Source: Thermalbibacter longus (GTDB lineage: Bacteria > Chloroflexota > Chloroflexia > Thermomicrobiales > Thermomicrobiaceae). From it: 64,000 nucleotides of DNA. The stretch covers positions 124,001-188,000 of the forward strand of contig NZ_JAMSLR010000002.1 of NCBI RefSeq assembly GCF_023806485.1, written 5' to 3'. Both the position numbers and the translations under genes were made by a program. This document shows positions 5,626-61,229 of this stretch, one piece after another; position 1 is the stretch's first letter, and each line of letters begins with the position of its first letter. Below the pieces are notes generated by a model. The model saw nothing but the letters and a program-made list of their open reading frames with translations. It ran no database searches and was not told the origin of the DNA.

Positions 5626-6206
5626 TCCGGGGGGTACGGGGCCGGCTGGTGGCCAAGCAGCCGGGCGCGGTGCTCGTCGATCTGCATGGCTTCATCCTGC
5701 GTCTCTACACGTCGCAGACCACGCTGGCTGACCTCGGCCAGCCGGGCGAGGAGGTGGAGCTGGTGACGCACCTGCGGGTGCGGGAGGACGAGCTGGCTCT
5801 CTATGGTTTTGCTTCGGCCGCCGAGCTCGAGCTCTTCGAGTTGCTGATCGGGGTGAGCGGGGTGGGCCCGCGGGCCGCGCTGGCGCTGCTCTCGATCGCG
5901 CGCCCCGACGAGTTGAGCCAGATCATCGCGGCGGAGGACGTTGACCGTCTCAGCCGGGCGCCGGGTATCGGGCGCAAGACGGCCAGCCGCATCGTGCTGG
6001 AGCTGCGCGGCAAGCTGCCGGCGCTGGCGCCCTCCGGTGAGCGAGCAGAGATGGCCCCGGATCGCGAGGTGGTCGAGGCGTTGATGGCGCTGGGCTATTC
6101 GGCAACGGAAGCGCGTGAGGCGGCTTCCCGCGTGAGCCCGGCCGAGGCGCCGACGCTCGAAGAGCGAGTGCTGGCCGCGCTTCGCCTGCTGGCTCGAACC
6201 GGCTAG
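5622..6206 (+). CDS. ruvA: Holliday junction branch migration protein RuvA
   Basis: RuvA tetramers bind Holliday junctions and load the RuvB motor during recombinational repair. The 194-residue product has the family length and its three domains: an OB-fold (IRGVRGRLVAKQPGAVLVD, residues 1-65), tandem helix-hairpin-helix motifs (LLIGVSGVGPRAALALLS and LSRAPGIGRKTASRIVLEL, about residues 68-130) and the short C-terminal RuvB-binding domain (EVVEALMALGYSATEAREA). GTG 5622 overlaps the previous stop as GTGA and follows AGGGAGG. Neither ruvB nor ruvC is adjacent, although these genes are often linked elsewhere. Confidence 0.95.
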   Translation: MIRGVRGRLVAKQPGAVLVDLHGFILRLYTSQTTLADLGQPGEEVELVTHLRVREDELALYGFASAAELELFELLIGVSGVGPRAALALLSIARPDELSQIIAAEDVDRLSRAPGIGRKTASRIVLELRGKLPALAPSGERAEMAPDREVVEALMALGYSATEAREAASRVSPAEAPTLEERVLAALRLLARTG

Positions 6207-6456: not shown

Positions 6457-8304
6457 ATGATGAGACGCTGCGGTGCGCAGCGACCTGATTCGTCTATCCC
6501 GCACGACGACACGCTCTCCTCACCGACATCGCACTGCGACTGGTGGCCAGAATTGCTCAGCGAAACGAGCTCCGCGGCTGGCAGCCGGCGCGATCCGGAG
6601 CCGGTTTGGCGCCCGGCGTCTCCCGACCACCGCGCGCGACACCAACCGGTCATGAATGCCCAGCAACGGAGGCGGCTCTGGGGCCTCAGGGCAGGGCAGC
6701 AGCTCACCCATCCGGTCTTGCTCGCGGTCATCGTGGCGGTGATCGCTGCCAGCAGCCTCTGGCATCCGGGGCTCTCGGCTGCGCTGCCCCAGGGAAGCCG
6801 CCAGGCCGCAGTCGACGGCGCCGCGCCGGCTGCAGGTACCCCCGCGCCGGGTACCGCCACACCCAGCCTGACACTTGCGCACTACGTCACCCGCGAGGGG
6901 GAGACGCTGGCGGACGTCGCGGCCGCCACCGGGCGGTCAGTGGAGACCCTGCTCTGGGCCAACAGCATCCAGGAGCCGGCGGCACGATTCCCGGCCGGAG
7001 TCGTGCTCGACATCCCGCCGGCCGACGGCGTGCTCCACGTCGTCCAGCCGGGCGATACGCTGGCGAGCATCGCTGGCTACTACGGCACGACGGTCGAGGC
7101 GATCACCGGCTTCGGCCCCAACGGCGTGCACAGCGATACCGACCTCTCCCCCGGCAAGCTGCTGATGGTGCCGGGGGCGTCGATGCGCCAGCGAGGTAGC
7201 GTCATCACCTACACCGTGCGGGAAGGGGACACGATCCGCAGCATCGCCGCGCGCTTCGGGCTCCAGACGAAGACGATCCTCTGGGCCAACACGATCCCCG
7301 ACCCCGATCTGATCTATCCCGGCCAGCAGCTCACGATCCTCCCGACCGATGGTGTCCTCGTCCGTGTGGAGGAAGGCGACACGATCCGCGGGCTGGCCGA
7401 GCGCTACGGTGTCGACCCGGCGGATATCTACGGCTACGCGCCGAACGCTATCGACAACCCGGATCTGATCCTGGTCGGGCAGGAGCTGGTTATCCCGGGG
7501 GCCGAGCCGCTTCCCGCCGCGCCGCCGGAGCCGGAGGTCACTGAGACAGCGGACACGGGAGCTGCCCAAGCGACCACGGATTCCCAGGCCCAGGAGACAG
7601 CGAGCGGTGACCAGGCGGCTTCCAACGAGGCCACGGCAGTGCCTCTGGCCGTAGAGACGACCCCAGAGGCTACGCCTGAGGCCACGACGACGCCAGAGCC
7701 GGCAGCGGAGCAGCAGGAGGGCGAAACCCAGCAGGCGTCCGAGGAGGCGCAACCTTCCACGACACCGGAGCAGGCGACGCCGGAGGCGACTCCCGCCGAT
7801 ACCCCGGCTCCCGAAGCGACACCGGCCGAGACCCCTGCGCCCGAGGCCACCGAAGCCGCCCCGGCCCCGGAGCCATCTCCGACGGCAACGCCGGAGCCCG
7901 AGCCGGCGAAGACCCCCGAGCAGCCGGCGCAGCAGGCGCCGACCGGCTCGTTCATCTGGCCGGCCAAGGGGGTGATCACCCAGTATTTCCACCGCGGTCA
8001 CAACGGGTGGGACATCGCCAACCGGATGTACACCGAGATCGTGGCGGCCGACAGCGGCACCGTGATCTTCTCCGGCTGGAACACCTATGGCCTGGGCTAC
8101 GCGGTGGCGATCGACCACGGCAACGGCTACGTGACCTGGTACGGGCACATGGCGGAGCCGCCGCCGGTGCAGGTGGGGCAGTGGGTGAACCAGGGGCAGT
8201 ACATCGGGCCGATGGGCAGCACCGGCTACTCCACCGGGCCACACGTCCACTTCATGATCGTGAAGAACGGCGTGTACCAGGACCCCGCACTGTACTTGCG
8301 CTAG
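6457..8304 (+). CDS. Membrane-anchored LysM / M23 peptidase cell-wall protein
   Basis: A 615-residue envelope protein. Residues 1-80 are polar, then a hydrophobic anchor (PVLLAVIVAVIAASSLW). Four LysM repeats follow (starting HYVTREGETLADVA, LHVVQPGDTLASIA, TYTVREGDTIRSIA and LVRVEEGDTIRGLA, roughly residues 143-350), then about 135 residues of Pro/Thr/Glu-rich linker with repeated TPEATP-like units, and a C-terminal M23 domain. The M23 domain has HNGWD and HVHF, the metal-binding His/Asp and HxH motifs, so it looks catalytically intact as a Gly-Gly or peptidoglycan endopeptidase. ATG 6457 has a strong purine-rich ribosome site (GGGAAGGGAAGGG); ATG 6652, right before the anchor, has none. It is convergent with hisD, with only 6 bases between the stops. 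Confidence 0.88.
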   Translation: MMRRCGAQRPDSSIPHDDTLSSPTSHCDWWPELLSETSSAAGSRRDPEPVWRPASPDHRARHQPVMNAQQRRRLWGLRAGQQLTHPVLLAVIVAVIAASSLWHPGLSAALPQGSRQAAVDGAAPAAGTPAPGTATPSLTLAHYVTREGETLADVAAATGRSVETLLWANSIQEPAARFPAGVVLDIPPADGVLHVVQPGDTLASIAGYYGTTVEAITGFGPNGVHSDTDLSPGKLLMVPGASMRQRGSVITYTVREGDTIRSIAARFGLQTKTILWANTIPDPDLIYPGQQLTILPTDGVLVRVEEGDTIRGLAERYGVDPADIYGYAPNAIDNPDLILVGQELVIPGAEPLPAAPPEPEVTETADTGAAQATTDSQAQETASGDQAASNEATAVPLAVETTPEATPEATTTPEPAAEQQEGETQQASEEAQPSTTPEQATPEATPADTPAPEATPAETPAPEATEAAPAPEPSPTATPEPEPAKTPEQPAQQAPTGSFIWPAKGVITQYFHRGHNGWDIANRMYTEIVAADSGTVIFSGWNTYGLGYAVAIDHGNGYVTWYGHMAEPPPVQVGQWVNQGQYIGPMGSTGYSTGPHVHFMIVKNGVYQDPALYLR

Positions 8305-8310
8305 GCGGGC

Positions 8311-9666
8311 CTACGCCGGCCGGCGTCGCTCCAGTCGCTGCTCGATGGCGGCCGCGTGCGCGGTGAGTCCCTCGGCGCGGGCGAGCGTCGCGGCCGGCGG
8401 CCCGAGGGCCTCTAGCCCCTGCGGGTTGACGGCCACCACGCTGATGACCTTCACGAACGTGTCCACGTTGATGGGCGAGGAGAAGCGGGCTGTCTGTCCC
8501 GTCGGCATCACGTGGCTGGGGCCGGCCGTGTAGTCGCCGATGACTTCGGGTGAGCTCTCGCCGACGAAGACGCCGCCGGCGTGCCGCACGCGGTCGAGGT
8601 AAGCCCAGGGCTCCTCGATCAACAGGCAGAGATGCTCGGGCGCGTAGGCGTTGGCCAGCTCGAAGGCGGTCTCGAGGTCGGGCACGACGGCGACAGCGCC
8701 GTTGGTCGCCAGCGACTCCGCCGCGATGCTCGCGCGCTCCAGGCGGGTGAGCTGGCGCTCGAGCTGCGCGACGACCTCCCGGGCCAGCCCGGCGTCCGTG
8801 GTGAGCAGCACGGCGCTGGCTAGCGGGTCGTGCTCGGCCTGCGCCAGCATGTCGGCCGCGCAGAGCGCGGGGTCGGCGCTGGCGTCGGCGATCAGGAGCG
8901 TTTCGGTGGGGCCGGGCAACTGGTCGATGTCCACGTCACCGTAGACCAGGCGCTTGGCCAGCACCACGAAGATGTTGCCTGGCCCGACGATCTTGTCTAC
9001 CCGCGGGATGCTCTCGGTGCCGTAGGCCATGGCCGCGATCGCCTGGGCCCCGCCGACTTTGAACACCCGGTCGATCCCTGCCAGCTCGGCGGCGACCAGG
9101 ATCACCGGCGAGACGCTGCCGTCCGGTGAGGGTGGGGCGCAGGCGACGATCTCCTCGACACCGGCTACTCGCGCCGGGACGGCCGACATCAGGAGAGACG
9201 ACGGGTATGGCGCCCGCCCGGCTGGGGCGTAGACGCCGACCCGCTCGAGCGGTCGCACGAGCTGCCCGAAGCCGCCCGCCGGCTCGAAGTGGAGCCATGA
9301 CTGTCGGATTTGGCGCTGGTGGAACGCCTCGATCCGGTCGCGGGCCAGCGCCAGCGCCTGGCGAATCTCCTCCGGAACCTGGGCCCTCGCGCGAGCGAAC
9401 TCCTCCTCCGTGACGGCGAAGCCAGCGAGCTCGAGGCCATCGATTGCTCGGCTGTAGCGGTGCAGCGCGGCGTCGCCGTGTCTCCGGACGTCGTCGACGA
9501 TCCGCTGGACCACCTCCATGGCCGTCAGGTCTGCGCCGAAGACCTCGCGCACCTTCTGCCGCACCGCCGGTGGCAGCTCTACCTGCTCGAGCCGCCGGCT
9601 GCGCAGCAAGAAGTTCCGCGCCTGCTCGAGATCCTCGAAGACGCGGACGGGCAATCCCTGGCTCAT
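8311..9666 (-). CDS. hisD: Histidinol dehydrogenase
   Basis: Catalyses the last two oxidations of histidine synthesis (histidinol to histidine, NAD+- and Zn-dependent). The 451-residue product has the family length and motifs: AGRAPYPSSLLMSAVPARVAGV, KVGGAQAIAAMAYGTESIPRVDKIVGPGN, DQLPGPTETLLIAD, AQAEHDPLASA (Zn Gln/His) and the YAPEHLCLL segment with its His. ATG 9666 follows GGGAGGA and overlaps the hisG stop as ATGA, so translation is coupled. It is the last gene of the five-gene minus-strand operon. In E. coli hisD follows hisG as well. Confidence 0.95.
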   Translation of the reverse strand: MSQGLPVRVFEDLEQARNFLLRSRRLEQVELPPAVRQKVREVFGADLTAMEVVQRIVDDVRRHGDAALHRYSRAIDGLELAGFAVTEEEFARARAQVPEEIRQALALARDRIEAFHQRQIRQSWLHFEPAGGFGQLVRPLERVGVYAPAGRAPYPSSLLMSAVPARVAGVEEIVACAPPSPDGSVSPVILVAAELAGIDRVFKVGGAQAIAAMAYGTESIPRVDKIVGPGNIFVVLAKRLVYGDVDIDQLPGPTETLLIADASADPALCAADMLAQAEHDPLASAVLLTTDAGLAREVVAQLERQLTRLERASIAAESLATNGAVAVVPDLETAFELANAYAPEHLCLLIEEPWAYLDRVRHAGGVFVGESSPEVIGDYTAGPSHVMPTGQTARFSSPINVDTFVKVISVVAVNPQGLEALGPPAATLARAEGLTAHAAAIEQRLERRRPA

Positions 9667-10682: not shown

Positions 10683-12147
10683 GGTCGTTTCCCTTGCCGG
10701 AGAGCATCTCAGTCTGTACCTCACCGTCCGCGTGAACCAGCACGAGCCGGTGAATCCCCCGGCGGCGGGCATAGCGACGGTTGGCGCTAGCGGAGCGGCC
10801 GCGGACGTCGAGCTCGACGACCTGCCCGGCAGTACGCAGCGCCTCGGCGACCTCGGCTGCCCGCGCCAGCGCCTCCGGCACGGCCGGAGCGACCAGCGTG
10901 ACCTCGGGCGCTGCCGGTGGCGGCAACGTGGCTGCCTCGGCGATCCGCTCCAGCCCGCAGGAGAATCCACAGGCTGGCAGTGGCGCGCGTGCCCCGAGCA
11001 CCTGCGCCAGGTCGTCGTAGCGGCCGCCGCCGCAGAGCTGGAGCGAGGGCTGATCGGCGGCGTAGACCTCGAAGAGGACGCCGGTGTAGTAGTGCAGCCC
11101 GCGCGCCATCCCTGGACTCAGCTCGATCCGGTCGCGCTCGATGCCGTAGGCGACTAGCAGGTCGAGCACAGTCTCCAGTTGCGCGATCGGCGACGGATCC
11201 AGCTCGTGCCGCTCGATGAGCGCTCGCAGCGCTGGGATCGCCTCGTCCGGCGGGCCGTGGATGGCGGCCAGGTCGCGCACGAAGGCGAACGACCGCCGGA
11301 CGACGTCGACGTCGTGCGAGCGGTTCAACTTGGCCAGCACACCGCTGACGATCTCCTCGGGCGTGCGCGAGCCGCCGGCCATCTGCACGCCGGTCTCCTG
11401 GAGGATCGCTAGCACCCAGCGCTCGAGCTGCTCGCCGGAGACGCCGCGCAGGGAGGATCCGAGTTCCTGGTAGAGCTCGGCCAGCCGTCCGCTGCCCGTC
11501 AGTCCGGCCAGTTCCGGCTCCAGATCCACCGGCTGGCCCTTGCGCAGGCGTTCCATGCTCCAGAGCAGCCAGTCGCGCACTCGCTGGCGGAGCGGGAGGC
11601 GGCTCAGGAAGTCGAGCACGATGCCGACGTGGCCGACCACGATGCGCGGCCGGATCCCGACCGCGTCCAGCACCTCGGCGGCCAGGTGGATCACCTCGGC
11701 GTCGCCGGCCGGCCCGGGAGCGCCGAGCAGCTCGCAGCCGACCTCGGTGAACTGCCGGCTTCGCCCGGCCTGCGGCCGCTCGTAGCGGAAGACCGGCCCG
11801 GCGTAGGCTAACCGTAGCGGCAGCGGCTCGGTCTGCAGCGACTCGACGTAATAACGCAGCACCGAGGCGGTGTGCTCGGGGCGCAGCGCGATCTCGCGGT
11901 TCCGGTAGGTAACGGCGTACATCTGCGCGATGCGCTCGGCGCCGGACTTGCGCAGGAACAGCTCGGTCGGCTCCAGCACCGGCGTCTCGATGAGCTGGTA
12001 CCCGTGACGTCCGAGCACGTCGAGCAGTCGCTCGAGCACGGTGCGCCGGCTACGGTACGCCTCCGGGCCGGCATCCTGCATGCCGCGCAGCCGCTCGACC
12101 GGCGTGGTCGCTTCGCGCTGGGAGGGGAGCGCGCCCGTGTCGGTCAC
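10675..12147 (-). CDS. hisS: Histidyl-tRNA synthetase (divergent)
   Basis: A class II aminoacyl-tRNA synthetase of 490 residues. Motif 2 (GPVFRYERPQAGRSRQFTEVG), the ALRPEHTASVLRY segment and motif 3 region (CGGGRYDDL ... CGFSCGLERI) are present, and a C-terminal anticodon-binding domain follows (VTLVAPAVPEALARAAEVAEAL). Two places depart from textbook HisRS: the EMYTF.D segment before the LRPE motif is missing (QMYAVTYRNREIALRPE instead), and the histidine loop reads ARGLHYYTG rather than RGLDYYTG. HisZ is an alternative reading because of hisG next door, but the anticodon domain and the long HisG speak against it. The GTG 12147 start overlaps the pheT stop as GTGA. Confidence 0.8.
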   Translation of the reverse strand: MTDTGALPSQREATTPVERLRGMQDAGPEAYRSRRTVLERLLDVLGRHGYQLIETPVLEPTELFLRKSGAERIAQMYAVTYRNREIALRPEHTASVLRYYVESLQTEPLPLRLAYAGPVFRYERPQAGRSRQFTEVGCELLGAPGPAGDAEVIHLAAEVLDAVGIRPRIVVGHVGIVLDFLSRLPLRQRVRDWLLWSMERLRKGQPVDLEPELAGLTGSGRLAELYQELGSSLRGVSGEQLERWVLAILQETGVQMAGGSRTPEEIVSGVLAKLNRSHDVDVVRRSFAFVRDLAAIHGPPDEAIPALRALIERHELDPSPIAQLETVLDLLVAYGIERDRIELSPGMARGLHYYTGVLFEVYAADQPSLQLCGGGRYDDLAQVLGARAPLPACGFSCGLERIAEAATLPPPAAPEVTLVAPAVPEALARAAEVAEALRTAGQVVELDVRGRSASANRRYARRRGIHRLVLVHADGEVQTEMLSGKGNDRE

Positions 12148-55914: not shown

Positions 55915-57039
55915 CTAGTGGCCAGCATGCAGCTCGACGCCGGGCACGACGACCTCGAACACCTCGGGGTTCTCCGGGCCCTCGACGTGGATGACTCCGC
56001 TGGCGCCCTTCATCAGCCGGCCCAGCGCGTGGTCGACCATCACGTAATCGCCTGGCACTTCGAGCGTGAACTCGACGATGGTCGCCCCGCCCGGCGGGAC
56101 GCTCGTCGTCTGCACGTTCTCGGCCCAGACCGAGCCGGCCTCGAGCGCGACCCGGTCGAAGATCTCGCCGATCACGTGGAAGCTCGAGGTCAGGTTGACG
56201 CCGCCGTTGCCGAAGAAGATCCGCACCCGCTCGCCGACCTTAGCCTGGAGTGCCCGCTCCCCGGCCAGCGCGCCCACCGAGCCGTTGAAGACCACGTAGT
56301 CGGGCTGCTCGGCCAGGCACTTCTCCAGCGAGAATCCGTGACGGCCGGGCTGGCCCCGCTGTCCGCTCAAGTAGAAGTCGCCCTGCATCACGTAGAACTC
56401 GCGGTCGACCGGTGGTAGACCCCCAGGCGGCTCCACGACGATCAGCCCGTACATGCCGCTGGAGACGTGCATCGGGATCGGCGGCACGGCGCAGTGATAG
56501 ACGTAGACGCCCGGGTTGAGGGCCTTGAACCGGATCGTCGCCGACCCACCCGGGTTGACCACGGTGTACTTAGCGCCGCCGCCCGGGCCGGTCACCGCGT
56601 GCAGGTCGATGTTGTGCGGCGTCTTGTTGTTCGGGTTGTTCTTAAGCGTCAGCTCCACGGTATCGCCCTGCCGCACACGGATCATCGGGCCAGGCACCGT
56701 GCCGTTGAACGTCCAGAACGTGTAGGCCACGCCGTCGTCGATCAGCGCTTCCACCTCGAGCGTCTCCAGCTCGACCTTGACGAGCTGCGGCTCGCGCCCC
56801 CCGACCGGCGGCGCGACTGCCGGCAGGGGCAGGCGGGTCAGGCCCTCGACGCTCTCGGAGGTTGCCGGTGCGGCCGGCGTGGAGGCAGCCGATGCGGGCG
56901 GCGCTTCCTGCTCCCCGCAGGCGGCCAGGATAGTGGCGGCTAGGGGCACGGCGGCGCCGGCCAGACCCAGCCGCTGCAACGCCTGGCGGCGGGTCAGCGG
57001 CCCGTTGACCTCTCGCAGTCCTGCCATCGTCCGAACCAT
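55915..57039 (-). CDS. NirK-type two-domain copper nitrite reductase, Tat lipoprotein
   Basis: A 374-residue two-domain cupredoxin. Tat-like signal LTRRQALQRLGLAGAAVPL and lipobox LAAC are followed by an Ala/Pro linker. Domain 1 has THE type-1 and type-2 ligands: PHNIDLHAV (His, catalytic Asp, His), YHCAVPPIPMHVSSGM (His, Cys, His, Met). Domain 2 has SFHVIGEIF and YVMVDHALGRLMKGA, matching the second-domain His ligands of NirK. So both copper sites and the catalytic Asp-His pair appear intact and nitrite reduction to NO is likely. ATG 57039 is favoured over GTG 57051 because a leader motif shared with doxX then lies at the same distance. Confidence 0.82.
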   Translation of the reverse strand: MVRTMAGLREVNGPLTRRQALQRLGLAGAAVPLAATILAACGEQEAPPASAASTPAAPATSESVEGLTRLPLPAVAPPVGGREPQLVKVELETLEVEALIDDGVAYTFWTFNGTVPGPMIRVRQGDTVELTLKNNPNNKTPHNIDLHAVTGPGGGAKYTVVNPGGSATIRFKALNPGVYVYHCAVPPIPMHVSSGMYGLIVVEPPGGLPPVDREFYVMQGDFYLSGQRGQPGRHGFSLEKCLAEQPDYVVFNGSVGALAGERALQAKVGERVRIFFGNGGVNLTSSFHVIGEIFDRVALEAGSVWAENVQTTSVPPGGATIVEFTLEVPGDYVMVDHALGRLMKGASGVIHVEGPENPEVFEVVVPGVELHAGH

Positions 57040-57190
57040 CGTCTCCACCACCTTCGAAATCCTCTCGTTTGTGTTCCGACGCGCTCGTTGCGTCCGGTTC
57101 TCTCTTTCCAGTCACTAGGATCGGCCTTTGAGCAGCCCGCTACCACGCGCGGAGGGATAGTTCTCGACTGCCCGGGAGGGGTAATTGCCT

Positions 57191-57208
57191 CCTACCCGCC
57201 TGGGTAGG
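57191..57208. promoter_or_regulatory. Palindromic operator candidate upstream of nirK
   Basis: CCTACCC-GCCT-GGGTAGG, a perfect 7-bp inverted repeat with a 4-base spacer, centred about 160 bases before the nirK start. A related site lies before doxX at 58293-58310. Nearby GGATAGTTC (57155-57163) is also shared. Confidence 0.55.
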
Positions 57209-57304
57209 TACAGGCCGTGGTTGCCCGGTGAGGGAGGCGGAGGAACGTGCCGCCGGCCTCGGGACGACCCGGGGCCGGCGAAGGGGAGAGTGCCGTGGCG
57301 TGGT

Positions 57305-58177
57305 CTACGCGTACCCGTTCGCAGGGGCTTGACCCCGGAACAGCCGGCCCGGGCTCCAGGGCGCGCCCAGCGCCGGGAGCAGGTAGCGGTCGATGCCCCA
57401 GTACCCGGCGACCTTCCAGGCCAGGATCAAGAGGATGCCCAGCGAGAAGAGCACTGGGTTAGTGCTGGCGGTTCCGGCGAGCATGAAATTGAGGTTCATG
57501 ATCGCCCCGAAGAAGGCGGCGATCCCGACCAGCCCGCCGACGATCAGGCCGAGCCCGACGAGGATCTCGCCACCGATGACCACCCAGGAGAACCAGCCGT
57601 ACCAGCCCTGATCCAGCATGAACTGGATGAAGTCGCGGTACCAGCCGTAGACGATAGGTGGCCGGCCCTGCTCCGGGATCGCGACCGCGCGTTCCCAGAA
57701 CCCTTTGAGCGCCGTGCCGCCCTGCGTCCAGCTCGGATCCTCCAGCTTGTGCCAGCCCGCCTCCAGCCACTGGTAGCCGAGGTAGAGCCGCACGCCGAGC
57801 CAGAGCGGGGCCGAGCGCGTGTCGTTGAACAGCCAGTGGGCGAGCTGGGGATCGCGGATACCGATCTGGGCGACATCGGTCGACTCGCCACGGGTGGCCT
57901 GGCGCAGCGGGTAGACTGCGGCCAGCACCAGGATCAGCGCGCCGAGGATGCCGGTCAGCAGGTAGAACCCGCCGATCGACGGGCCGACCTTGCTCAGCGA
58001 CTCGATCGGCCCCAGCGGGCCGAAGATCCGGCTCCCTCCCCAGCCGCCGAGGAATCCCAGGACGAGCAGGTAGCCGAACTGGCGATCCAGCGTCACCTGC
58101 CGGGCGATCAGCCGTTGCCCCAGCACAGCCGCTGTCGCTGCCACGATGACCGTGATGATGTAGCCGAGCGGTTCCAT
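57305..58177 (-). CDS. DoxX/DoxD-family membrane protein
   Basis: A 290-residue protein with about seven or eight hydrophobic segments. The C-terminal two thirds follow the DoxX/DoxD pattern: WLGVRLYLGYQWLEAGWHKLEDPSW, GFWERAVAIPEQG, WFSWVVIGGEILVGLGLIVGG and MNLNFMLAGTASTNP. DoxD is a subunit of thiosulfate:quinone oxidoreductase in Acidianus; many DoxX proteins have other or unknown redox roles, so I do not assign the substrate. The N-terminal 90 residues add two or three helices. ATG 58177 follows AAGGAGAGG. It precedes nirK in the same direction and shares leader motifs with it. Confidence 0.75.
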   Translation of the reverse strand: MEPLGYIITVIVAATAAVLGQRLIARQVTLDRQFGYLLVLGFLGGWGGSRIFGPLGPIESLSKVGPSIGGFYLLTGILGALILVLAAVYPLRQATRGESTDVAQIGIRDPQLAHWLFNDTRSAPLWLGVRLYLGYQWLEAGWHKLEDPSWTQGGTALKGFWERAVAIPEQGRPPIVYGWYRDFIQFMLDQGWYGWFSWVVIGGEILVGLGLIVGGLVGIAAFFGAIMNLNFMLAGTASTNPVLFSLGILLILAWKVAGYWGIDRYLLPALGAPWSPGRLFRGQAPANGYA

Positions 58178-58282
58178 GGTTCCTCTCCTTCGCCTCGGTC
58201 TCTCGTTTGTCTGGCTCCAGAGTAGCCGAGGCGCATGCGCGTGATCAGCCCTCGTTGGGTGGGATTCTCTTTGCTGGCAGGG

Positions 58283-58320
58283 TAGTTCCGGTCCCGCCCG
58301 TTCGGGTAGGGGAAGAACTA
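58283..58320. promoter_or_regulatory. Extended palindromic operator candidate upstream of doxX
   Basis: TAGTTC (58283-58288), CCCGCCC (58293-58299), GGGTAGG (58304-58310) and GAACTA (58315-58320) are all symmetric about 58301.5, giving a 38-bp two-layer palindrome about 125 bases before the doxX start. The inner part matches the site before nirK except for two positions in one arm. Confidence 0.55.
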
Positions 58321-58386: not shown

Positions 58387-59037
58387 TTAGCTGGGAGGCC
58401 CGGCTGGCTTGACCAGGCCAGTGCGCAGCGCGTAGGCGATGACCTGGGCCCGGTTCTCGAGGTGGAGCTTGGCCATGATGTTCTTGAGGTGGTATTTGAC
58501 CGTGTTCTCGCTGATAAAGAGGCGGTCGGCCAGCTCGCGGTTCGAGGTGACCCCCTGGACGAGCAGCTCCAGGATCTCCCGCTCGCGGTCGGTGAGCGCG
58601 GCTGCCGGCTCCTGCGCGGACGGGCCTTGGGCCAGTTCCTGTAATAGCCGGCGGGCCAGCCGCGGGGTCAGCACCGGCTCGCCGGCCATCACCGATTCCA
58701 GCGCCTGGAAGAACTCGTCTGCCTCCAGGTTCTTCAGCAGATAGCCTTGAGCGCCGGACTTGATCGCCTCGAAGAGGTCGGCCTCGTCGTCGGACGCGGT
58801 GAGGATAACGACCCGGACATCCGGCAGCTCAGTGGCCACCAGCCGGGTGGCGGTAAGCCCGTCGACCTCCGGCATCGTCAGATCCATCAACACGATGTCG
58901 GGCCGGTGACGTCGCGCCAGCTCGATCGCCTCGCGGCCGTTCTTCGCCTCGCCGACGACTTCGACGCCGCGCGCCTCGAGCAGGCTGCGCAGGCCATCGC
59001 GGAAGAGCGCATGGTCATCAGCGATCAAGACGCGCAT
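58387..59037 (-). CDS. NarL/FixJ-family response regulator
   Basis: A 216-residue two-component regulator. The receiver has the acidic pair in LIADDHALFRDG, the phosphorylation Asp in IVLMDLTMPEVDG, Thr in VVILTASDD and Lys in YLLKNLEA. A LuxR-type helix-turn-helix follows: LTDREREILELLVQGVTSNRELADRLFISENTVKYHLKNIM at about 150-190. It overlaps the histidine kinase gene by 20 bases, so the two are co-translated. The adjacent nirK/doxX genes with palindromes of NarL-like type (TACCC half sites) are the obvious candidate targets. Confidence 0.92.
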   Translation of the reverse strand: MRVLIADDHALFRDGLRSLLEARGVEVVGEAKNGREAIELARRHRPDIVLMDLTMPEVDGLTATRLVATELPDVRVVILTASDDEADLFEAIKSGAQGYLLKNLEADEFFQALESVMAGEPVLTPRLARRLLQELAQGPSAQEPAAALTDREREILELLVQGVTSNRELADRLFISENTVKYHLKNIMAKLHLENRAQVIAYALRTGLVKPAGPPS

Positions 59038-60445
59038 CGCTTCCTCCCACAGTGAGTGCGTGCTGCCTGAGCGGGATCTCGACCTCCACGGTGGTACCCT
59101 GCCCAGGCTGCGAGCGGATATCGAGCGTGCCGCCGACCGCCTCGGCCCGCTCGCGCATCGTTGCCAGCCCGAAGCGCGGGTAGCCGGTACGCTCGTGGGC
59201 CTCGGGGTCGAAGCCGGCGCCGTTGTCGGTAACGGTCACGGTCACAGCATCGTCAGTCTTGCAGATCTGGACGGTCACGCGGGTGGCGCCGGCGTGCTTG
59301 CGCACGTTGGTCAGCGCCTCCTGGACGATCCGCAGGAGCTGGAGCTCGGCGATCGTCGAGAGCCCGGTGAGCTCGTCGCCCGGCGGCTCCACGGTCAGTT
59401 CGACTGCGATGCCGCTCTGCTCCCGCCAGCGCTCCAGGTAGCGCTCCAGCGCCTGGAGCAGGGTCTGCGAGGGGTCGAGGCCGGTCCGGAGTCCGAGGAT
59501 ACCCTCGCGCACGTCGGCGTAGGCATCGCGCGCGGCCTGCTCGAGCTGGCGCAGGTGCTGCTCCGCGTCGGCGACTCGCCCGGCTTGTCCGAGCAGCTCG
59601 CGCGCGGCCGATGCCTTGGTGATCACGTAGCCGAGCACCTGTGCCAGGCTATCGTGCATCTCGCGGGCGAGCCGCTCGCGCTCCTCGGCGATCGCCAGGC
59701 TGGTAATCCTGCGGTGCAGCCGGGCGTTGGTGATGGCCAGCGCTGCCTGGGTGGCGAACCGCTCGAGCCGGAGCTGATCCTGCGTCGTATACGGGGCGCC
59801 GTTATCTCGATCAGCGAGGTAGAGTGCGCCCAGGATCGTGTCCCCGCTCCGGATCGGTACGCCCAGGAGCGTGCGCATCGCTGGGTGGCCCTCCGGGAAG
59901 TGCCGCTGGCCGGGGTAGCGCTCGAGGTCGTCGATGCGGAGGGAGCGACCTTCCCGCAAGACCTGGTCGAGCAGGCCATGCGAGGTGATCTCGGAGATCC
60001 GGCACTCGCGATCGGCGGGCAAGCCAGAGGCGAAGACGATCGGCGGCATGCCGGGCTGCTCGCGCATGATCAGCAAGCCGTAGCGCGCGCCGATAAGCCG
60101 GCGAGCTTGATCCACGACCTGTGCCAGGAGCTTATCCAGGTCGAGGTCGGAGGCGATCGCCAGTCCGGCCTCGTGGAGAGCCTGGAGTTCGGCGTTCTGC
60201 TGGGCCAGCGTGGCCTGCTGCCTGGCGATGATGCGGAAGATCCACTCAGCGAAGACGACGATGCCGATCAGGACGAGCGCGATGACCGCGAGCCGGGGAG
60301 CCCAGGGGTTTGGCAGGAGCCGTTCCATGAGCTGGCTGCCGAGCAGGAGCAGCAGCATATAGGCGGCCGGCGCCAGGATCGCGATGCGCTTCAGGCGACG
60401 CAGCCGCTGCTCGGCGGGGAGCGGGGCGGAGACGTTGCGCTCCAT
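59018..60445 (-). CDS. Membrane histidine kinase with GAF domain (HisKA_3 type)
   Basis: A 475-residue sensor kinase. Two transmembrane segments (RIAILAPAAYMLLLLLGSQL and LAVIALVLIGIVVFAEWIF, within residues 20-75) with almost no outside loop are followed by a GAF domain (about 100-245). Then the phosphoacceptor helix REMHDSLAQVLGYVITK of HisKA_3 type and an ATPase domain with EALTNVRKHAGATRV, DNGAGFDPE and GLATMRERAEAVGG. The lack of an extracytoplasmic sensor suggests signal sensing in the GAF domain or the membrane, as in NreB/LiaS-type systems. ATG 60445 starts the conserved protein; the ribosome site is distant (GAGAGGAC). First of two genes with the response regulator. Confidence 0.9.
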   Translation of the reverse strand: MERNVSAPLPAEQRLRRLKRIAILAPAAYMLLLLLGSQLMERLLPNPWAPRLAVIALVLIGIVVFAEWIFRIIARQQATLAQQNAELQALHEAGLAIASDLDLDKLLAQVVDQARRLIGARYGLLIMREQPGMPPIVFASGLPADRECRISEITSHGLLDQVLREGRSLRIDDLERYPGQRHFPEGHPAMRTLLGVPIRSGDTILGALYLADRDNGAPYTTQDQLRLERFATQAALAITNARLHRRITSLAIAEERERLAREMHDSLAQVLGYVITKASAARELLGQAGRVADAEQHLRQLEQAARDAYADVREGILGLRTGLDPSQTLLQALERYLERWREQSGIAVELTVEPPGDELTGLSTIAELQLLRIVQEALTNVRKHAGATRVTVQICKTDDAVTVTVTDNGAGFDPEAHERTGYPRFGLATMRERAEAVGGTLDIRSQPGQGTTVEVEIPLRQHALTVGGSDARLDR

Positions 60446-61080: not shown

Positions 61081-61126
61081 GGGCGACTCCACCGCGCCTC
61101 TGCGAAGAGGCGCGGTGGAGTCGCCC
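61081..61126. repeat. Perfect 21-bp inverted repeat with 4-base loop
   Basis: Positions 61081-61101 and 61106-61126 are exact reverse complements around GCGA; the left arm begins GGGCGACTCC and ends GCGCCTCT. It lies between the IscA-like gene and tRNA-Leu, directly behind another hairpin. It may be a strong terminator without U-tract, or a dispersed palindromic element. Confidence 0.8.
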
Positions 61127-61229
61127 GAGTGCGCTGATGGGGCGGTCACGTCAGTGAGTCCGGACGCTCAGTCTCGTATACTTTTGCGTGGTGGTGTGGC
61201 CGCGACAGAGGCACGCGCCGCACGCGCTT

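Follow-up and report, generated by a model that had tools for sequence, protein, structure and literature searches.

The copper nitrite reductase gene (nirK) and the doxX-family gene of this Thermalbibacter longus genome are each preceded by three tandem predicted operators of about 18 bp, with the consensus CCTACCC-N4-GGGTAGG. Relative to a predicted sigma70-type promoter the operators are centred at about -42.5, -66 and -89.5, and this geometry is identical for the two genes. The sites, their geometry, their conservation, their linkage to the gene of the response regulator RRn and their presence at held-out targets were observed directly. We consider it likely from these sequence features that the sensor kinase HKn and RRn are an O2/NO-responsive two-component activator of denitrification and terminal oxidase genes. 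In such a mechanism HKn would be a DosS-like GAF sensor that binds haem and senses O2 and/or NO, while phosphorylated RRn would bind as dimers to the three tandem CCTACCC-N4-GGGTAGG-type operators and, from the sites near -42.5, -66 and -89.5, would activate the sigma70-type promoters. The target genes would be those that serve respiration on nitrogen oxides or low oxygen. In this genome these may be nirK, doxX, a ba3-type oxidase, a cupredoxin and probably a ctaG-linked cox operon, and in relatives nosZ, ctaA/haem genes and a molybdo-oxidoreductase.

The window, a stretch of 64,000 nucleotides, is contig C12:124001-188000 of a 3.63-Mb genome that is 99.9% complete and whose nearest named relatives are Thermomicrobiaceae MAGs, Bacterium HR28 and Sphaerobacter. 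Four genes follow one another on its minus strand. The first encodes HKn (59018..60445), a sensor histidine kinase with N-terminal hydrophobic segments (by inspection) and the Pfam domains GAF, HisKA_3 and HATPase. The second encodes RRn (58387..59037), the proposed activator, a NarL/LuxR-type response regulator with a receiver and a GerE helix-turn-helix (Pfam Response_reg 105 bits, GerE 71 bits) whose PDB matches include VraR, DevR and NarL. The doxX-family membrane protein (57305..58177) has 290 aa (Pfam PF07681 DoxX, 23.9 bits, cut-off 23.6). The nirK frame (55915..57051) gives 378 aa from GTG 57051 (NCBIfam TIGR02376, 361 bits, cut-off 296); the likely start is GTG 57048 or ATG 57039, and orthologues start at a codon aligned with GTG 57048 (MIENMIRT...). 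Elsewhere in the window, at about 61085-61130, a long inverted repeat (GACTCCACCGCGCCTCT/AGAGGCGCGGTGGAGTC) lies between an iron-sulfur-assembly-like gene and tRNA-Leu.

Operator arrays and promoters of nirK and doxX

An earlier note on this DNA had described CCYRCCC-N4-GGGTAGG palindromes and copies of GGRTAGTTC before both genes, and all of these are present. On the forward strand the palindromes are CCTACCC-GCCT-GGGTAGG at 57191-57208 and CCCGCCC-GTTC-GGGTAGG at 58293-58310, and the GGRTAGTTC copies are GGATAGTTC at 57155-57163 and GGGTAGTTC at 58280-58288. The shared promoter architecture that the note proposed is borne out, the palindrome being one of three tandem sites in each case. Read on the minus strand, nirK operator A is CCTACCC-AGGC-GGGTAGG (57191..57208, centre about -89.5), which is kept in nirK orthologues. 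Operator B is ATTACCC-CTCC-CGGGCAG (57168..57185, centre about -66.5), at whose place the orthologues in two genomes, G002 and G003, carry ACTATCC-CGTC-GGGT(G/C)GG. Operator C (57144..57161, centre about -42.5) is ACTATCC, corresponding to GGATAGTTC, with a degenerate right half; its AACTATCC/AACTACCC is kept in G002, G003, HR28 and a Sphaerobacter sp. The predicted -35, TGGTAG (57140..57145), stands 9 bp past the operator C half-site and the predicted -10, GATCCT (57117..57122), 17 bp further on; GATCCT and its spacing are the same in the G002 and G003 nirK promoters.

The minus-strand array of doxX consists of operator A, CCTACCC-GAAC-GGGCGGG (58293..58310, centre about -89.5), operator B, ACTACCC-TGCC-AGCAAAG (58269..58286, centre about -65.5), which includes GGGTAGTTC, and operator C, CCCACCC-AACG-AGGGCTG (58246..58263, centre about -42.5). 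These are followed by a predicted -35, TGATCA (58242..58247), and, 17 bp past it, a predicted -10, TACTCT (58219..58224). The spacing is thus 23 bp from A to B and 24 bp from B to C for nirK, with TGGTAG-N17-GATCCT, and 24 and 23 bp for doxX, with TGATCA-N17-TACTCT. GGRTAGTTC is the outer half of an operator, namely site C in nirK and site B in doxX. The second symmetric layer (TAGTTC/GAACTA) that had been described at doxX could not be maintained, since GAACTACCC makes up the left half of the array's middle operator and the two elements are half-sites of tandem operators.

An alignment of promoters from this genome and its relatives follows a common plan. Sites A, B and C stand at intervals of 22-25 bp, distances that are partly imposed by the spacing script, which limited A-B to 22-25 bp and B-C to 21-25 bp. 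The site C half-site is followed by exactly 9 bp and then a TG at -35 in 25 of the 33 promoters, a position that played no part in choosing the alignment. A -10 (for example GATCCT, GACACT, TATTCT or TACTCT) follows after a further 17 bp; it was likewise unused in the choice, and the spacer was picked among 16, 17 and 18. With this geometry site C is centred at -42.5, where activators that touch the -35 usually bind.

The two genes also share the word ACAAACGAGAG on the minus strand, in the nirK 5' UTR (57062..57072) and close to where the doxX mRNA is predicted to begin (58200..58210). It was said to lie 22 bases before both starts; the coordinates hold, although for nirK the 22 bases require the ATG at 57039, and GTG 57048 gives 13 bp. 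A whole-genome search found exactly two copies in 3.63 Mb, before nirK and doxX only, and the word is absent from the upstream regions of orthologous nirK genes in the relatives checked. Being unique in the genome yet absent before orthologues, it was dropped as part of the control element and is, judging from this distribution, a lineage-specific 5'-UTR word outside the operator. It might act in translation or mRNA stability, or be a recent local copy. If the whole likeness of the two promoters came from recent local duplication or gene conversion rather than regulation, a non-conserved word confined to these two genes is what one might expect to see. By inspection, however, the two 5' regions share little beyond the operator elements, and the same array stands before unlinked genes in this and other genomes, with the nosZ and cox sites described below contradicting duplication for the operators. 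We therefore regard this explanation as extremely improbable.

Conservation in relatives and further candidate targets

Lack of conservation before orthologues was one outcome by which the earlier note would have judged its own proposal wrong. We checked this and the palindrome is kept, so this check does not refute the proposal. Orthologous nirK genes are preceded, at similar distances, by the same palindrome and by (G)AACTAYCC; their identity is 88% in G002/G003, 75-76% in HR28 and about 50% in a further group of genomes (g4). Overall the palindrome precedes nirK in 10 of 15 genomes, where 0.035 would be expected in shuffles. RRn orthologues with at least 66% identity were found in 30 of the 61 genomes searched. 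Among the 29 genomes with an RRn orthologue and usable sequence, 17 genomes in three families have a palindrome just 3' of the RRn gene (score of at least 20 of 24, within 320 bp) against a shuffle expectation of 0.02, and the other 12 neighbourhoods are without a good palindrome. These expectations come from dinucleotide shuffles; a figure from control slices was left unused as it was contaminated by real sites.

The gene next to the RRn-linked site varies. It is doxX in two families (f2 and f3), nirK in HR28 and G005, and a molybdo-oxidoreductase in G002/G003. Since regulator, site and target remain linked across families, the arrangement of kinase, regulator, operator and target is an old one. 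In the g4 genomes RRn is unlinked to nirK and nirK still has the array, so the array is more than a flank of RRn. Sites without a detected RRn occur in three genomes (G001, G019 and G038) that are 62-82% complete. RRn is present and no nirK was detected in G014, G016 and G018. Farther away close RRn homologues are patchy, with 11 among 301 sampled Chloroflexota genomes (E 1e-75). G265, from a different family, carries an array of the 9-bp/TG geometry ahead of a complex that includes an NrfD-like subunit (by inspection), and in G217 RRn homologues lie beside cydA-like and universal-stress-protein-like genes (names by inspection).

Several individual loci may be recorded here. In G003 (L116:1143-5950), and likewise in G002, the RRn-linked array precedes a molybdopterin oxidoreductase that takes the place of doxX and nirK, with an NrfD-like subunit and then a possible chaperone after it (names by inspection). 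In HR28 (L020 at about 5877-5910, and likewise L138) the distal nirK operator, CCTATCC-TATT-GGATAGG, lies inside a hairpin followed by a stretch of T residues (GGCGACCTATCCTATTGGATAGGTCGCCTTTTT). This structure resembles a terminator for the regulator gene, so that the operator would sit within an intrinsic terminator. A nirK remnant covering 135 of 378 residues at 59% identity lies 3' of the RRn orthologue in G011 (C1:1296750-1297163, L135) and still has two operator-like palindromes. This suggests that nirK was lost there, with the regulator and its putative sites left behind. In G037 (C49, L240) an array precedes a universal-stress-protein-like gene; DosR controls universal-stress-protein-like genes in mycobacteria.

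The genome-wide search that the earlier note had called for was run, and CCYRCCCN4GGGTAGG occurs at three places only in the 3.63 Mb, before nirK, before doxX and at C34:281607, which is beyond chance as the reversed control pattern has 0 matches. The C34 site is upstream of a coxBA operon judged ba3-type by inspection of the CoxB and CoxA sequences. An exact search with the shorter CTACCC-N4-GGGTAG yields in addition C4:71947, which lies in the gap from ctaG to a coxBA-ctaA operon. With the spacer opened to CTACCC-N{0,12}-GGGTAG there is overall no excess over the reversed control; the three sites of this genome that have a role are all N4, and CTACCC-N6-GGGTAG is absent from it. The ba3-oxidase operon and its site on C34 adjoin an apparent CRISPR array (L004, about 7500-9200) in whose repeats several frames encode the phrases IIPTHVGVDR/HPHARGGGP; a possible cas gene lies at 10696-11646.

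A sequence-only covariance model built from 16 training sites (nirK, doxX or RRn-linked) was run over 41 genomes. It recovered the held-out C34 site before the ba3-type coxBA operon (E 0.0045) and gave a weak match before a cupredoxin-like gene at C1:636134, which is also found in G001. In Sphaerobacter it matched a ctaG-site-coxB arrangement and a ctaA/radical-SAM intergenic region, and in HR28 and its genus a site before nosZ (NosZ by TIGR04246, >900 bits). Some weak matches are clear coding-sequence false positives. The match at C5:11003 of this genome, kept in G002/G003 with equal score, was rejected as an operator because it falls within a coding sequence, where the conservation is that of the protein; those at L243 and L249 look spurious, and that at L248 has no evident respiratory target.

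The nosZ gene is unlinked to the RRn gene. A palindrome scoring at least 19 upstream of nosZ was found in 10 of 12 genomes with RRn versus 2 of 10 without (Fisher p 0.008, shared ancestry ignored). The two exceptions, G001 and G019, are incomplete members of one family, and the G001 site was counted by eye, having a weaker palindrome (17.4) with a following ACTACCC. Among genomes at least 85% complete the counts become 10 of 11 with RRn versus 0 of 5 without (p 0.0014, shared ancestry ignored). In G028 and G015 RRn is present and nosZ has no site. The small nitrogen-oxide or redox regulon of the earlier note thus holds in being respiratory, but it is wider than nirK and doxX. The added candidates are the ba3-type oxidase operon, the cupredoxin and probably the second oxidase operon of this genome, and nosZ in relatives.

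Most of these targets are copper enzymes, which brings up the idea that a copper-responsive, CsoR-like regulator uses the TACCC...GGGTA palindromes. NirK, NosZ, oxidases, multicopper oxidases, the cupredoxin and CopD-like genes all have copper in common, and CsoR operators are also palindromes of a C run and a G run. Here, though, the central four bases vary freely, and three tandem sites with one at -42.5 beside the -35 form the geometry of an activator. Targets outside copper also exist (the Mo-oxidoreductase and a radical SAM haem enzyme), and no copper-efflux gene, the kind of gene at which CsoR operators lie, overlapping the promoter, stood out beside the matches examined, which adjoin respiratory genes. 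A copper regulator is thus very unlikely to be what reads these sites.

The proposed regulator and its possible signal

The adjacent kinase and regulator pair, already named as the controller in the earlier note, is the best candidate by linkage and co-occurrence. RRn is present in 17 of 20 genomes with a model match at E <=0.02 versus 7 of 21 other genomes, a comparison that is supportive only, because many of these genomes contributed training sites. The recognition helix of RRn, TVKYHLK, is nearly invariant in orthologues and has the Lys-x3-Lys pattern through which NarL contacts DNA. RRn fails the curated NarL model (175.1 bits, cut-off 250) and the NarP model (142.9, cut-off 343), and its closest solved regulator by sequence is the VraR/LiaR-type 5hev (E 5e-47).

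RRn is not the only candidate regulator that adjoins a site here; the other is a LuxR regulator encoded next to ctaG on C4 of this genome. It belongs to a second pair of GAF kinase and LuxR regulator (L114:8970-10879) beside ctaG and coxBA-ctaA, with close relatives in this genus only. A different LuxR-type regulator, notably this one, could be the protein that binds, with RRn a mere neighbour that is perhaps itself regulated. The C4 pair does directly adjoin one exact palindrome in this genome (G000), G002 and G003. Its regulator, however, has close orthologues only within the genus (87% identity in G002 and G003, <=63% elsewhere), whereas the array is order-wide and RRn adjoins it in three families. 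Additionally, the ctaG-site-coxB arrangement of Sphaerobacter persists without an adjacent regulator gene. It is therefore improbable that another regulator fills this role, and RRn remains the proposed activator.

As to the signal, the best solved relatives of the HKn GAF domain are the GAF-A haem domains of DosS/DevS and DosT type (E about 1e-23 to 5e-22). HKn H187 and Y209 align with DosS His149, the haem ligand, and Tyr171, which hydrogen-bonds bound O2 (PMC4082495). Both residues are kept in nearly all HKn orthologues with a readable GAF, even where the flanks change, with one clear exception (L159), and among the 16 GAF_2 domains of the genome only that of HKn has both. DosS Glu87 and His89 are not kept in the GAF alignment. 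A DosS-like GAF with its haem-pocket residues kept favors a haem-bound gas sensor; the residue pattern alone is no proof of haem binding, and we put the chance that HKn is such a sensor at about even.

The same regulator pair could instead respond to nitrate/nitrite, as NarX/NarL does, or to redox/quinone state. This would suit the resemblance of RRn to NarL in sequence and of the half-site to the NarL heptamer TACYYMT, as well as the presence of nirK and nosZ among the targets. Set against it are the DosS-like GAF with both haem-pocket residues, the oxidase operons that are also among the targets, and the domains of HKn, for which Pfam gives only GAF, HisKA_3 and HATPase, with no separate nitrate-sensor domain or HAMP. 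Such a signal is somewhat unlikely, and haem-bound gas remains the preferred one. The NarL-type system of the earlier note therefore stands for the regulator, but the sensor is DosS-like, not NarX-like.

Relation to known systems

A close parallel is DosS/DosT-DosR (DevS/DevR) of Mycobacterium, which likewise joins a GAF sensor with a HisKA_3 kinase to a NarL-family regulator and has respiratory targets, and whose His149 and Tyr171 have equivalents in HKn. DosS and DosT bind haem, and O2, CO or NO gates their kinase activity. It differs in that DosS and DosT have two tandem GAF domains, whereas HKn has a single one (Pfam) and N-terminal hydrophobic segments. The DosR box is TTSGGGACTWWAGTCCCSAA, compared with the conserved CCTACCC-N4-GGGTAGG here, and the targets here are denitrification and oxidase genes. 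NarX/NarL and NarQ/NarP of enterobacteria likewise place nitrogen-oxide respiration under a NarL-family regulator, and TACCC fits the heptamer TACYYMT. However, NarL and NarP use a 7-2-7 site with TACCC cores 6 bp apart (TACCC-N6-GGGTA), whereas here the N4 spacer is conserved and the cores are 4 bp apart; NarX and NarQ have a nitrate-sensor architecture, a periplasmic sensor domain together with HAMP, that HKn does not share. The VraR/LiaR-type regulators, to which RRn is closest in sequence, govern cell-envelope stress regulons, and we know of no respiratory role for them. In staphylococci NreBC, a cytoplasmic O2-responsive kinase with a NarL-type regulator, controls nitrate/nitrite respiration, and NreB senses through a PAS-bound Fe-S cluster in contrast to the GAF domain of HKn.

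In the literature we searched, no prior description was found of a Chloroflexi NarL-type regulon, a nirK regulator in Thermomicrobium/Nitrolancea, DevS in Chloroflexi or clade II nosZ motifs, nor any described denitrification or oxidase regulon for these Chloroflexota. What is known is two-component activation by the NarL family; what is new is the combination of sensor, operator and regulon. We give roughly equal odds for and against the full picture, in which an order-wide and patchily phylum-wide regulon would pair a NarL-type activator, reading an operator code of its own, with a haem-GAF kinase anchored in the membrane, and in response to O2 and/or NO the two would jointly turn on nitrite reductase, nitrous oxide reductase and the terminal oxidases.

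The operator code, the promoter geometry and the likely cognate sensor and regulator pair can be read from sequence, and there are cultivable relatives such as Sphaerobacter thermophilus. In these bacteria nosZ, whose product is the N2O sink enzyme, would thereby be linked to a specific control system. The findings further suggest that a DosS-type haem-GAF sensor, known from mycobacterial dormancy, serves elsewhere as a respiratory master switch.
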